64,000 nt of DNA from Edaphovirga cremea (GCF_003332275.1 NZ_QOVA01000012.1:1-64000), one strand, 5' to 3'. Counted from the first letter of the stretch, positions 48,409 to 51,937 are shown. Notes: generated by a model not told the origin, from the sequence alone. Made by a program: numbers and translations.

Positions 48409-48430
48409 TAAATCAGTTTATTATATAACT

Positions 48431-48457
48431 ATTTAGCCTCCGATAAGGGGGCTAAAT
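48431..48457 (+). terminator. Hairpin downstream of zntA
   Basis: ATTTAGCC (48431-48438) pairs with GGCTAAAT (48450-48457), 24 bp after the zntA stop. No T tract follows, so termination is uncertain. The 171-bp gap also has to hold the promoter of the next operon unless it is read from zntA. Confidence 0.4.
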
Positions 48458-48579
48458 AGAGCACTAAATGTTATGCCTCCCCTCTTATTTTCCGCTACAT
48501 TCCTGCCGCTTAATTCATCTATGCCACCCTTTCCGCCAGAATACCTCTGGCCGTAAACCTGTGACCCGCGGTTCTCATA

Positions 48580-49692
48580 ATGAAGCGACTACCCTGTGCC
48601 TGCTATCTGGTTTTTCCCCTTGGCTTATTGGTTCACAGTGCATATGCCGATGACAAGGCAGCAAATACCGATCAACTGATCGCTCAAGCCGATCGCCCAA
48701 TGTTCAGCCAGCAGGAATCGCTCGCCGATCCGGCTGCTGTCACCCCCCAATCGACTGTGGCAGAACACCATGTGCTGCCGATCTGGGGCGATGCCGCTCG
48801 GGCGAAAGGTTATGATCTGCCATTGCCTTTTGGCGTTGGCATGAGCTACATGAATATGCGGCAAAATATTGATGTCGATAGCATCAGTTTTTCCGGTTTG
48901 TCGCTGCCATTGCCCTCGGGTGGTGCACACGCCATTCCAGGCGATATGTTTAATATCGCCGTGGGCAACACCCGCGAGAAAAGCGAAACAGAGACACTGC
49001 GACTGGATACCTGGCTGTTTCCTTTCCTGAACGTCTATGGCGTGGTCGGATACACTGACGGCAGTTCGGTTTCCCAGGTTTCCGTGGATGCCGATCCCGC
49101 CAAATATACCTGTCCGCGTAAAGGCAAGAAAGCCGGATGCCACCTGGATACGGCGATTGCGTCCGCCGTTCATGCCATGAATCAAAGCGGTAAATTGCAG
49201 AATATTGACTTCCAACTCGACTTCAAAGGTATGACCTATGGCGCAGGTTTTACTCTGGCGGGTGGCTACAAGAACTGGTTTACCGCTGTGGATACCAACT
49301 ACACGCGCACCAATTTTGACATTCTCGACGGTAAAATCTCCGCATTAACCGTCACGCCCCGGGTCGGGTACCGTTTTGACACGCCAGGCAATGAGACGCT
49401 TCATCTGGCACCCGGACATCTCAGTCTGTGGGTCGGCACCATGTATCAGGACGTCCAGCAAGAGTTTCGCGGTAACCTCTCTGATTTGCAAATGCCGACA
49501 GAACTGGTGAACCTCATCAATCTGGTCAATCAGGATGATCAAGGGAAATTTGATGTTAAACAGCATCTTAAATCACCCTGGAATGTCTTGATTGGTACGC
49601 AATATGAGGTAAGCAAAAACTTCAATATTCTGGCCGAAGTCGGTTTCAGCGAACGAAACAGCTTCTTTATTTCAGGTGAGTATCGCTTTTGA
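48580..49692 (+). CDS. Predicted outer-membrane beta-barrel protein, first gene of an OM operon
   Basis: This 370-residue protein has a signal peptide (about 1-23, AYA cleavage). A region of about 60 residues follows, then alternating strands up to a terminal aromatic ISGEYRF, the C-terminal Phe signature read by the BAM machine. An internal loop has two Cys (CPRKGKKAGC, about 178-187), which may form a disulfide. I do not recognise a named family. The Shine-Dalgarno sequence is weak. Its TGA overlaps the TTG start of the next gene, and three coding regions run as one unit to 51937. E. coli has no gene here between zntA and tusA. Confidence 0.8.
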   Translation: MKRLPCACYLVFPLGLLVHSAYADDKAANTDQLIAQADRPMFSQQESLADPAAVTPQSTVAEHHVLPIWGDAARAKGYDLPLPFGVGMSYMNMRQNIDVDSISFSGLSLPLPSGGAHAIPGDMFNIAVGNTREKSETETLRLDTWLFPFLNVYGVVGYTDGSSVSQVSVDADPAKYTCPRKGKKAGCHLDTAIASAVHAMNQSGKLQNIDFQLDFKGMTYGAGFTLAGGYKNWFTAVDTNYTRTNFDILDGKISALTVTPRVGYRFDTPGNETLHLAPGHLSLWVGTMYQDVQQEFRGNLSDLQMPTELVNLINLVNQDDQGKFDVKQHLKSPWNVLIGTQYEVSKNFNILAEVGFSERNSFFISGEYRF

Positions 49693-50810
49693 TCAAAGCG
49701 CTGATATGCGCTTTGCTGCTCGTGACCTCATTGAGCGCTGCCGGAGCCTTGCCCAGCCGACAGCAGGTTGATGGCATGCTTGCCTCATTGGGGGCCGATA
49801 ACCAGTTTGATCGCAGCAAAAGCATTGATTGGGGTATTTTACCGGGGCCGTTTTTTACCCCGGAGCTAGGTCTGGGTATGGGTATGGCTGCCGTTGGTAT
49901 GTACCGCCCTGACGCAGAGGATTCAACCAGCCAAAACTCTACGTTGGCCTTGAAAGGCTTTGCCAGTTCAACGGGCGCTTTTGGCATGAGCTTTGAAAAT
50001 TATAGTTTTTTTGCTAACGACAGTTGGCGTTTTTTTATCAGTGGTGCGATCAGCGATATGCCGACCTACTACTGGGGTACCGGTTATCAGGCCGGGAAAA
50101 ACGATGGCAATAAAGAAAAATATACCTTGCAGTCACTTTCCCTGACCCCCCGGCTATTGTATCGCATCGCGCCTGACACCTATTTCAGCCTGGGATGGGA
50201 TATCTCATCCAGCCATGCGAAAGACCCGCAGGGCAACTTGTTCAGTGAAGAAGCAGCTGGCGAGTCAGTGTTCAGTTCCGGTTCCAGCATCGGGCTGAAT
50301 TACGACAGTCGAGATAATGTGTCTAACGCTACCCGCGGTCAGGTGGCGTCGGTGATCTTGACCCAGTATGCGCCGCAGCTAGGCAGTAACAGCCACTATA
50401 CCTCGCTGGAGGCGCAGTATGGCCGCTATCAGCGTTTAAGTGAACGCAGCGTGCTGGCCGTTGATGTCTACAGTCGGCTGACGCAAGGGGATGTGCCCTG
50501 GGATCGCCTATCGCAACTCGGCGACGATAAGCATATGCGTGGTTACTATGAAGGGCGGTATCGCGATCGTAATACGTTCAGCGCGCAAGTGGAGTATCGC
50601 CGCAAGCTCGACTGGCGAAACGGCTATGTCCTGTGGGCTGGCGCAGGCACGATGAGTTCCCACACCGACCAATTGGGGGGTGGCCCCTGGCTGCCGACCG
50701 TCGGCGTAGGCTATCGTTTTGAATTTAAACCCCATATGAATGTGAGATTGGATTTAGGTATTGGGCGTGAAAGCGCTGGATTCTATTTTCAGGTAGGAGA
50801 AGCGTTTTGA
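49689..50810 (+). CDS. Omp85 / BamA-TamA family barrel protein without POTRA domains
   Basis: This 373-residue protein has a signal peptide (about 1-20) and a surface-antigen (D15) barrel. GLNYDSRDN (202-210) and the loop-6-like motif MRGYYEGRYRD (283-293) are Omp85 hallmarks, and the protein ends GFYFQVGEAF with terminal Phe. At most about 40 residues precede the barrel, so POTRA domains are absent. The start is TTG at 49689: AGGTGAG lies 8 nt upstream, the TTG overlaps the previous TGA as TTGA, and only this start gives the signal peptide. No ATG is available in frame nearby. Confidence 0.82.
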   Translation: MIKALICALLLVTSLSAAGALPSRQQVDGMLASLGADNQFDRSKSIDWGILPGPFFTPELGLGMGMAAVGMYRPDAEDSTSQNSTLALKGFASSTGAFGMSFENYSFFANDSWRFFISGAISDMPTYYWGTGYQAGKNDGNKEKYTLQSLSLTPRLLYRIAPDTYFSLGWDISSSHAKDPQGNLFSEEAAGESVFSSGSSIGLNYDSRDNVSNATRGQVASVILTQYAPQLGSNSHYTSLEAQYGRYQRLSERSVLAVDVYSRLTQGDVPWDRLSQLGDDKHMRGYYEGRYRDRNTFSAQVEYRRKLDWRNGYVLWAGAGTMSSHTDQLGGGPWLPTVGVGYRFEFKPHMNVRLDLGIGRESAGFYFQVGEAF

Positions 50811-51937
50811 TACGATCTTTCGTTTTCACTGGCCTGCTGCTGACGCTTTTCTGCGTACACGCCAGCCCTTCGGCTCCACAGACAGACGCCGCCCTGTGGC
50901 CAGCGAACCCAACAAATCAGGCGTGGCCTGTGACCCAGCCGCTAAATCCCCCCGAAGGGCTGCGACCATGCTGCGCCTTCGGTTACAACCTGAAGGCTGA
51001 AGCGCTTGGCGTACCCGTGCCCTTCTATCAACTGGGCAATGTCATCGATACTCAGCACCTTGGCGAACATCATTACAACGACAGCAATCTGGGTGCGGTG
51101 ACCAATCTACTGGGCATCAACAGTGAGAAAGTCGGGTTGATATATACCCGACGCGGTGGCTTTATCGATCTGGCGCACGTCCGCGATACCGCCGATAACA
51201 CCTTTTATCTGTTCAGTCAGATACTGCCACAGCTTGGTCAACGCTGGCGTATCGATTTGCAGCCGGAACTGGCGCTAAGGCGTATTCAGTTTACCGAGTT
51301 TACCGCGCCCGCCGATCCGGCAGAACGTTACGCGCTGGCAACGTATCTGGCAGGGAAACTGGCCTTCCAACTGGCAGCCTGGCATGAGATTGCGCAATGG
51401 TATGGATTTCAGTCGGTACCCGGATTTTCAGAGGGAGTTTCCGCATTTTCACCGGAAGATCTCTACTCCAATTTGCTCGGGGCACATCTGGCGATTCAAA
51501 CTATCCTGACCGGCCACGCCCAATCCGTCAGTGAATTCAATCAGGCAATGACCGATCTTTTGCCCACAGCACTCGCCCAACTTGATGCGGTGAGTGTGAC
51601 AGAAACCCGCGTGCAGTTTGACCTGCTGGATGGAAACTGGTGGGACAGCCATAAGCGCGTGCCGGAGAAGTTCCTGGTACTCAAGCGCAATTACGATACG
51701 TCAGACGATCGCTTGCCGACGCCGGTACCGGATGAAACTTTACCGCCGCAACGTCTTGGGTTGCCTGATAATATCGACAGCTATCCGCTTAGCGCACTGG
51801 CTGCGTTGCAACTGTGGCCGGGCAGCGACCGGGGGACATTGCCGCCTTCAAAAATGTATTTTACCGCAGCAGATTTCGCCATGCTGGCGCTGCAGGCACG
51901 TAGCGCCGATGCACAGCAGATTCTACAGAAGAGGTAA
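50807..51937 (+). CDS. DUF4056 domain-containing exported protein
   Basis: This 376-residue protein has a signal peptide (about 1-20, VHAS) and then DUF4056-like segments. They are LRPCCAFGYNL (52-62), RRGGFIDLAHVRDTADNT (115-132), AWHEIAQWYGF (191-201) and SAFSPEDLYSNLLG (212-225). The clustered His124, Asp127, His193 and Glu194 look like a possible metal or catalytic site, although HEIAQ is not the classic HEXXH. It starts with TTG overlapping the previous stop as TTGA, with AGGAGA 6 nt upstream. It is convergent with tusA, 12 bp apart. The function is unknown. Confidence 0.82.
   Translation: MIRSFVFTGLLLTLFCVHASPSAPQTDAALWPANPTNQAWPVTQPLNPPEGLRPCCAFGYNLKAEALGVPVPFYQLGNVIDTQHLGEHHYNDSNLGAVTNLLGINSEKVGLIYTRRGGFIDLAHVRDTADNTFYLFSQILPQLGQRWRIDLQPELALRRIQFTEFTAPADPAERYALATYLAGKLAFQLAAWHEIAQWYGFQSVPGFSEGVSAFSPEDLYSNLLGAHLAIQTILTGHAQSVSEFNQAMTDLLPTALAQLDAVSVTETRVQFDLLDGNWWDSHKRVPEKFLVLKRNYDTSDDRLPTPVPDETLPPQRLGLPDNIDSYPLSALAALQLWPGSDRGTLPPSKMYFTAADFAMLALQARSADAQQILQKR

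Follow-up and report, generated by a model that had tools for sequence, protein, structure and literature searches.

Three genes lying between zntA and tusA, here called A, B and C, form one envelope unit, and their association recurs across many bacteria. All three are on the + strand of the 64-kb window (the whole stretch of DNA analysed, from Edaphovirga cremea) and encode exported proteins, two of them outer-membrane barrels and the third a DUF4056 protein. The role best supported for this operon is phospholipid head-group chemistry at the outer membrane with dedicated barrel partners, a reading to which we assign a probability of roughly 55%.

The original prediction placed three exported proteins joined by 4-base overlaps in the zntA–tusA interval, and the open reading frames and both TTGA junctions were found there (Table 1). 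Because the overlap is TTGA at each junction, B and C begin with TTG, and these starts supply the signal sequences of the two proteins. A sigma-70 scan of the region between zntA and A found no consensus promoter site. Bounded by this 171-base region and, after C, by the convergent tusA, A-B-C is a self-contained operon. Dozens of species repeat the trio, its genes overlapping by 1-4 bases or separated by almost no gap, and its arrangement is therefore not due to chance.

Table 1. Coordinates of the A-B-C operon and of conserved sites in protein C, counted from the first base of the window.
Feature	Position	Strand	Description
Gene A	48580..49692	+	ATG start, 370 aa; exported outer-membrane barrel, ~10 long strands, C-terminal Phe; without named family
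Gene B	49689..50810	+	TTG start, 373 aa; exported Omp85-superfamily barrel without POTRA, C-terminal Phe
Gene C	50807..51937	+	TTG start, 376 aa; exported DUF4056 (CapCone lipocone) protein
A-B stop/start overlap TTGA, 4 bases	49689..49692	+	
B-C stop/start overlap TTGA, 4 bases	50807..50810	+	
zntA-to-A intergenic region, 171 bases	48409..48579	+	Without ORF; presumed operon promoter and leader
C55-C56 vicinal Cys pair of C	50969..50974	+	C56 invariant, C55 >90% in 56 homologues
H124 of C, predicted active-site His, helix H2	51176..51178	+	GGFIDLAH; G118 at -6, D121 at -3; invariant in 56 homologues; first turn of helix 122-142
H193-E194 of C, predicted active-site Glu of helix H3	51383..51388	+	Invariant in 56 homologues; helix 171-198
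S212-x-x-S215-x-x-D218-x-x-S221-N222 of C, predicted active-site Asp of helix H4	51440..51472	+	S212, D218, S221, N222 invariant, S215 >90% in 56 homologues; helix 218-234

We surveyed 295 Enterobacteriaceae genomes (GTDB family), which are related by descent, so their counts are not independent. Full-length C was present in 61 of these genomes, A in 57 and B in 55; where C was full-length, A accompanied it in 56/61 genomes and B in 54/61. Only one genome (G590) had A or B without C, and the other sampled member of that genus (G473) has the full set. Tabulation of the neighbours of DUF4056 genes showed that the possibility of their occurring mostly without barrels did not hold, as neither A nor B was found in only 5 of the 61 genomes. 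At the level of the order (218 genomes), A detected at E <= 1e-40 was present in all 34 genomes with full-length C, not always adjacent to it, and in two genomes without C. The A-B-C order is kept in 69 of 80 named loci, with the same short overlaps or gaps, and is also seen on plasmids. C loci in the family have 46 different combinations of flanking genes, and zntA lies upstream of the operon only in a minority of them. Moreover, A, B and C show correlated pairwise distances over 82 non-redundant operons (r 0.82-0.94 vs. a permutation maximum of 0.22, with no species-tree control). The set is widespread, occurring in Klebsiella, Serratia, Yersinia, Edwardsiella, Photorhabdus, Xenorhabdus, Providencia and other members of the order. 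The earlier suggestion of a single envelope unit is thus borne out by co-occurrence, by conserved order in changing surroundings and by correlated divergence.

The coupling had also been called strict. This wording is too strong: Klebsiella pneumoniae splits the set, with C alone at one locus and, at a second, A-B next to gyrB and yidA; Budvicia and Limnobaculum retain C with neither A nor B. Raoultella keeps A and C together and B elsewhere. In Salmonella houtenae, three consecutive genes of matching sizes, the last encoding DUF4056, lie at the yidA site. The statement that E. coli has nothing comparable is correct for its chromosomes (no match in 5,426 genomes) but not for its plasmids, eight of which carry DUF4056 relatives. 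Among the E. coli plasmid loci (L205 and L206), A-B-C was seen with K88-like fimbrial genes and IS elements as neighbours, and another plasmid has A, a 101-aa gene and C adjoining virK/ybjX, glycosyltransferase and deacetylase genes.

Several loci vary further in content or condition. In five of them (L047, L053, L066, L072, L079) and in other Enterobacteriaceae loci, an extra POTRA-less Omp85 paralogue, ~24% identical to B, lies directly upstream of A; some of these loci also have an exported MscS-type channel ahead of the paralogue (L053:10153-11778), so that the operon comprises 4 or 5 genes. Decaying copies were seen at L051, L064, L104 and L117 and in the B gene of G863, with C split in two frames or A and C carrying in-frame stops; B is split in Serratia rubidaea and has one stop in the K. 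pneumoniae type strain. Some database labels call for care: a ‘Chryseobacterium’ contig (L194) bears an enterobacterial operon, the K. pneumoniae chromosome CP125156.1 is filed as a plasmid, and the Salmonella contig AGRM01000003.1 is filed with phages.

Two of the three proteins were expected to end in Phe, and A (...SGEYRF) and B (...FQVGEAF) do so, whereas C has no terminal Phe. A belongs to no Pfam or NCBIfam family, its sole Pfam signal being a sub-threshold one to OMP_b-brl, and a sequence search found no solved relative. The AlphaFold2 model of A, computed from an alignment of 37 homologues, is a barrel of ~10 long strands (pLDDT 83.6, pTM 0.72). FadL provides its top Foldseek matches (E 1.3e-7), at a TM of about 0.2 that allows no fold-level assignment. 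We rejected the identification of A as FadL, which is a 14-strand barrel with a hatch domain and resembles A, with its ~10 long strands, at the level of the barrel only.

B carries the Omp85 hallmarks SRDN and RGYYEGRYRD, and it lacks POTRA domains, as had been noted from the sequence. It matches Omp85 in Pfam (PF01103, 3.1e-15) over residues 129-373, placing the barrel domain at the C terminus, and it matches the NCBIfam model Omp85_fam at 7.1e-21, under that model's cut-off. No POTRA match was obtained at E <= 1, and the whole protein has only 373 residues. A profile of B had one match among solved structures, the POTRA-containing Omp85 protein 9ccg (E 1.5e-4). With a C-terminal Omp85 barrel and no POTRA or other N-terminal domain, B fits the noNterm class of the Omp85/TpsB superfamily (PMC4104836), a class without established function; B, by contrast, has fixed partners.

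C matches DUF4056 (PF13265, 1.3e-129) over residues 44-308. The original prediction gave none of the three families a settled function and did not know of the placement by Burroughs, Nicastro and Aravind (eLife 2025, PMC12419801), who assign DUF4056 to the Lipocone superfamily as CapCone-DUF4056. Intact lipocones are predicted in the same study to remove or exchange phosphate-linked lipid head groups. CapCone proteins are recognised by a helix-2 His with a Gly at position -6 and an xD motif in front of it, a helix-3 Glu, the pattern S/GxxSxx before the helix-4 Asp, and a small residue-Asn pair ending four residues after that Asp (PMC12419801). Judged by its sequence, C is a CapCone-DUF4056 member, as all of these signatures are present. 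Among 56 homologues, G118 and H124 are invariant, as are D121 of the x120-D121 motif and E194; in the S212xxS215xxD218 and S221-N222 stretch all named residues are invariant bar S215 (>90%). In the AlphaFold2 model of C (pLDDT 83.2, pTM 0.86), E194 falls within helix 171-198, and this helix, helices 122-142 and 218-234 and strands 111-114/118-121 come in the order expected for the four-helix core and hairpin clasp of a lipocone. A Foldseek search of the model against the PDB returned no structural neighbour, so CapCone membership rests on the sequence signatures and catalysis is a prediction; sequence searches likewise found no solved relative. In an hhalign comparison, C matched a smaller family of CapCone-1-like type (95%, E 1.7e-8), whereas against YfiM/DUF2279 it gave 11%, over the signal peptide only, from alignments shallower than the profiles used for the published link.

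The predicted active site of C consists of H124, E194 and D218. A conserved metal site had been proposed around His193/Glu194 and His124; H124 and E194 are indeed invariant, but D218 was missed. A zinc-type metal site in C is conceivable, but the published site (His/Glu/Asp) is described for lipid head-group chemistry. The Cys pair and HE motif reported for the third protein correspond to C55, C56 and to H193, E194. The Cys pair follows shortly after the export signal of C and is almost invariant, being present also in a distant relative (L061). A lipobox was found in about 30 of 96 C proteins (about a third). Small CapCone-1-like proteins with no obvious signal peptide and with the motifs GWIDLGHA and SGYSAEDLISN (L059, L062, L118-L122) are possibly effector-type relatives of C.

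Barrels of the A family also stand beside lipid enzymes other than C. A lipoprotein alpha/beta-hydrolase is encoded inside the operon, usually between A and C, at 15 loci in other families of the order, and a Photobacterium locus reads A-B-C-patatin. A paralogues without C adjoin HKD phospholipase-D-type lipoproteins, carboxylesterases, patatins and further POTRA-less Omp85 barrels, and most of these enzymes have a lipobox. HKD proteins of the phospholipase D/cardiolipin-synthase type (PLD) were found in 10 of 50 loci with A and no C vs. none of 92 loci with C, and most of the HKD lipoproteins contain two intact HKD motifs by pattern. As A paralogues adjoin HKD enzymes in place of C, the HKD enzyme and the lipocone share one barrel partner family. 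The A proteins linked to C group in a single clade, where they make up 80 of the 89 members, and those linked to PLD group in a different one, so the function of the enzyme-linked paralogues could differ. Both kinds of locus coexist in some genomes, each with its own A (e.g., L057 and L283 in G044). Together, these observations support A-family barrels as partners of outer-membrane lipid-acting enzymes, C being one of them.

Other arrangements of these barrels were also seen. A- and B-family barrels lie side by side, sometimes in tandem (B-A-A-B-A), with no DUF4056 gene nearby at eight loci (L276, L277, L278, L291, L294, L308, L309 and, on a Cupriavidus plasmid, L271). A cluster that recurs at L280, L289, L293 and L312 comprises an A paralogue, a carboxylesterase lipoprotein and an HKD PLD lipoprotein; a patatin lipoprotein is often present as well. 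The GxSxG pattern was not found in the carboxylesterases of A-paralogue clusters.

We propose that the operon acts as a dedicated outer-membrane lipid-processing unit. C would be a CapCone lipocone enzyme exported to the periplasm, with a lipid anchor in roughly one homologue in three. It would act on phospholipids at the outer membrane, using H124, E194 and D218 to cleave off or exchange their phosphate-linked head groups. Barrel A would position C at the outer membrane or let it reach that membrane, and B may assist, either in the insertion of its partners or by creating an opening for lipid in the membrane. We infer the chemistry, substrate and direction of C, and the division of labour between the barrels and the outer-membrane site of action are put forward on the same footing. 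Head-group chemistry at the outer membrane is the best-supported role because an HKD enzyme and a lipocone occupy the same position by the same barrel family, and because ClsO offers a precedent: it is a surface-exposed outer-membrane HKD lipoprotein for which cardiolipin synthesis at the outer membrane is proven (PNAS 2026, PMC12846801). The shared A-family neighbourhood mirrors a published argument in which Wok lipocones were proposed as cardiolipin synthases from a gene neighbourhood shared with an HKD cardiolipin synthase. C itself could possibly be a cardiolipin synthase, and nothing here singles out that role.

The likeness to ClsO lies in the outer-membrane phospholipid head-group chemistry predicted for C and in the HKD lipoproteins of that general type beside A-family paralogues. 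However, C has another fold and no HKD motif (a read-through of its sequence found neither two HxKxxxxD motifs nor any HxK), and the text of the ClsO paper mentions no operon or barrel partner (PMC12846801). The YfiM-DUF2279 and YfiM-Griddle proteins are likewise lipocones coupled to outer-membrane barrels and proposed modifiers of outer-membrane lipids, but they belong to another lipocone clade, whereas C is a soluble lipocone and barrel A has no Pfam or NCBIfam family (PMC12419801). More tentatively, DUF4056 may represent a second, non-homologous route to make or exchange outer-membrane phospholipids, a lipocone counterpart of ClsO, with A-family barrels serving as a general, hitherto unrecognised docking or lipid-access module for interchangeable HKD, patatin, carboxylesterase, alpha/beta-hydrolase and lipocone enzymes.

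The same neighbourhoods allow other readings. C and the linked hydrolases might degrade exogenous phospholipids at the surface, with A importing the resulting hydrophobic molecule. This would follow the VolA-FadL idea of Vibrio, where V. cholerae VolA releases fatty acids from phosphatidylcholine for uptake. The FadL matches of A and the lipases and esterases among hydrolases linked to its paralogues would suit such scavenging; we nevertheless consider it unlikely, as those matches have a TM of about 0.2 to a barrel of 14 strands rather than ~10, a head-group enzyme alone releases no fatty acid, and no catabolic gene is constantly linked. We hold it equally doubtful that A and B are an export or surface-display route with C, or the lipoprotein enzymes beside A paralogues, as cargo. 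Several unrelated exported enzymes do adjoin A-family barrels, and Omp85 proteins can translocate lipolytic cargo (PlpD, PMC4104836), but B is without the POTRA domains that normally receive cargo, and C occurs without either barrel in some genomes and far from A-B in Klebsiella.

An antibacterial effector or toxin role for C, as thought for its CapCone-1 and CapCone-2 relatives, draws on the proposal of a Salmonella DUF4056 protein as a T6SS effector candidate (PMC11669294), on the many predicted lipocone toxins in the literature and on the homology of C to the CapCone-1-like family. This seems improbable for a protein with its own signal peptide or lipobox, encoded in a stable, mostly one-copy chromosomal operon with no immunity-like neighbour and no PADLOC or PHROG match; S. 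houtenae, moreover, has the ordinary three-gene arrangement outside a T6SS cluster. We rejected T6SS effector as the general role of C on account of its own export signal and the position of the operon outside T6SS clusters, and anti-phage defence in view of the PADLOC and PHROG results. Least probable of all, and very much so, is action of C on polyisoprenoid-linked precursors (lipid II, O-antigen or ECA carriers) rather than phospholipids, as for TelC: TelC and the CapCone families share one lipocone clade, yet the linked enzymes are of phospholipase and esterase type rather than glycan enzymes, and the partners are outer-membrane barrels, away from inner-membrane carriers.

That DUF4056 is a lipocone, and that lipocones are linked to outer-membrane barrels (YfiM-DUF2279), was already known (PMC12419801). 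Every sequence signature listed there is present in C. The paper's main text names no operon or partner for the family, to which the present analysis adds barrels A and B and the link to lipid enzymes. What appears to be new is the A-B-C unit, the unnamed barrel family A and the pairing of this family with interchangeable lipid enzymes; the literature searched reports no tested function for any DUF4056 protein or any barrel of family A. If C does modify outer-membrane phospholipid head groups, it would represent, alongside ClsO, a lipocone-based way of remodelling the lipids of this membrane. It would also give POTRA-less Omp85 barrels a working context, and it suggests a candidate function for barrel family A, whose members are repeatedly encoded beside lipid enzymes of several kinds.
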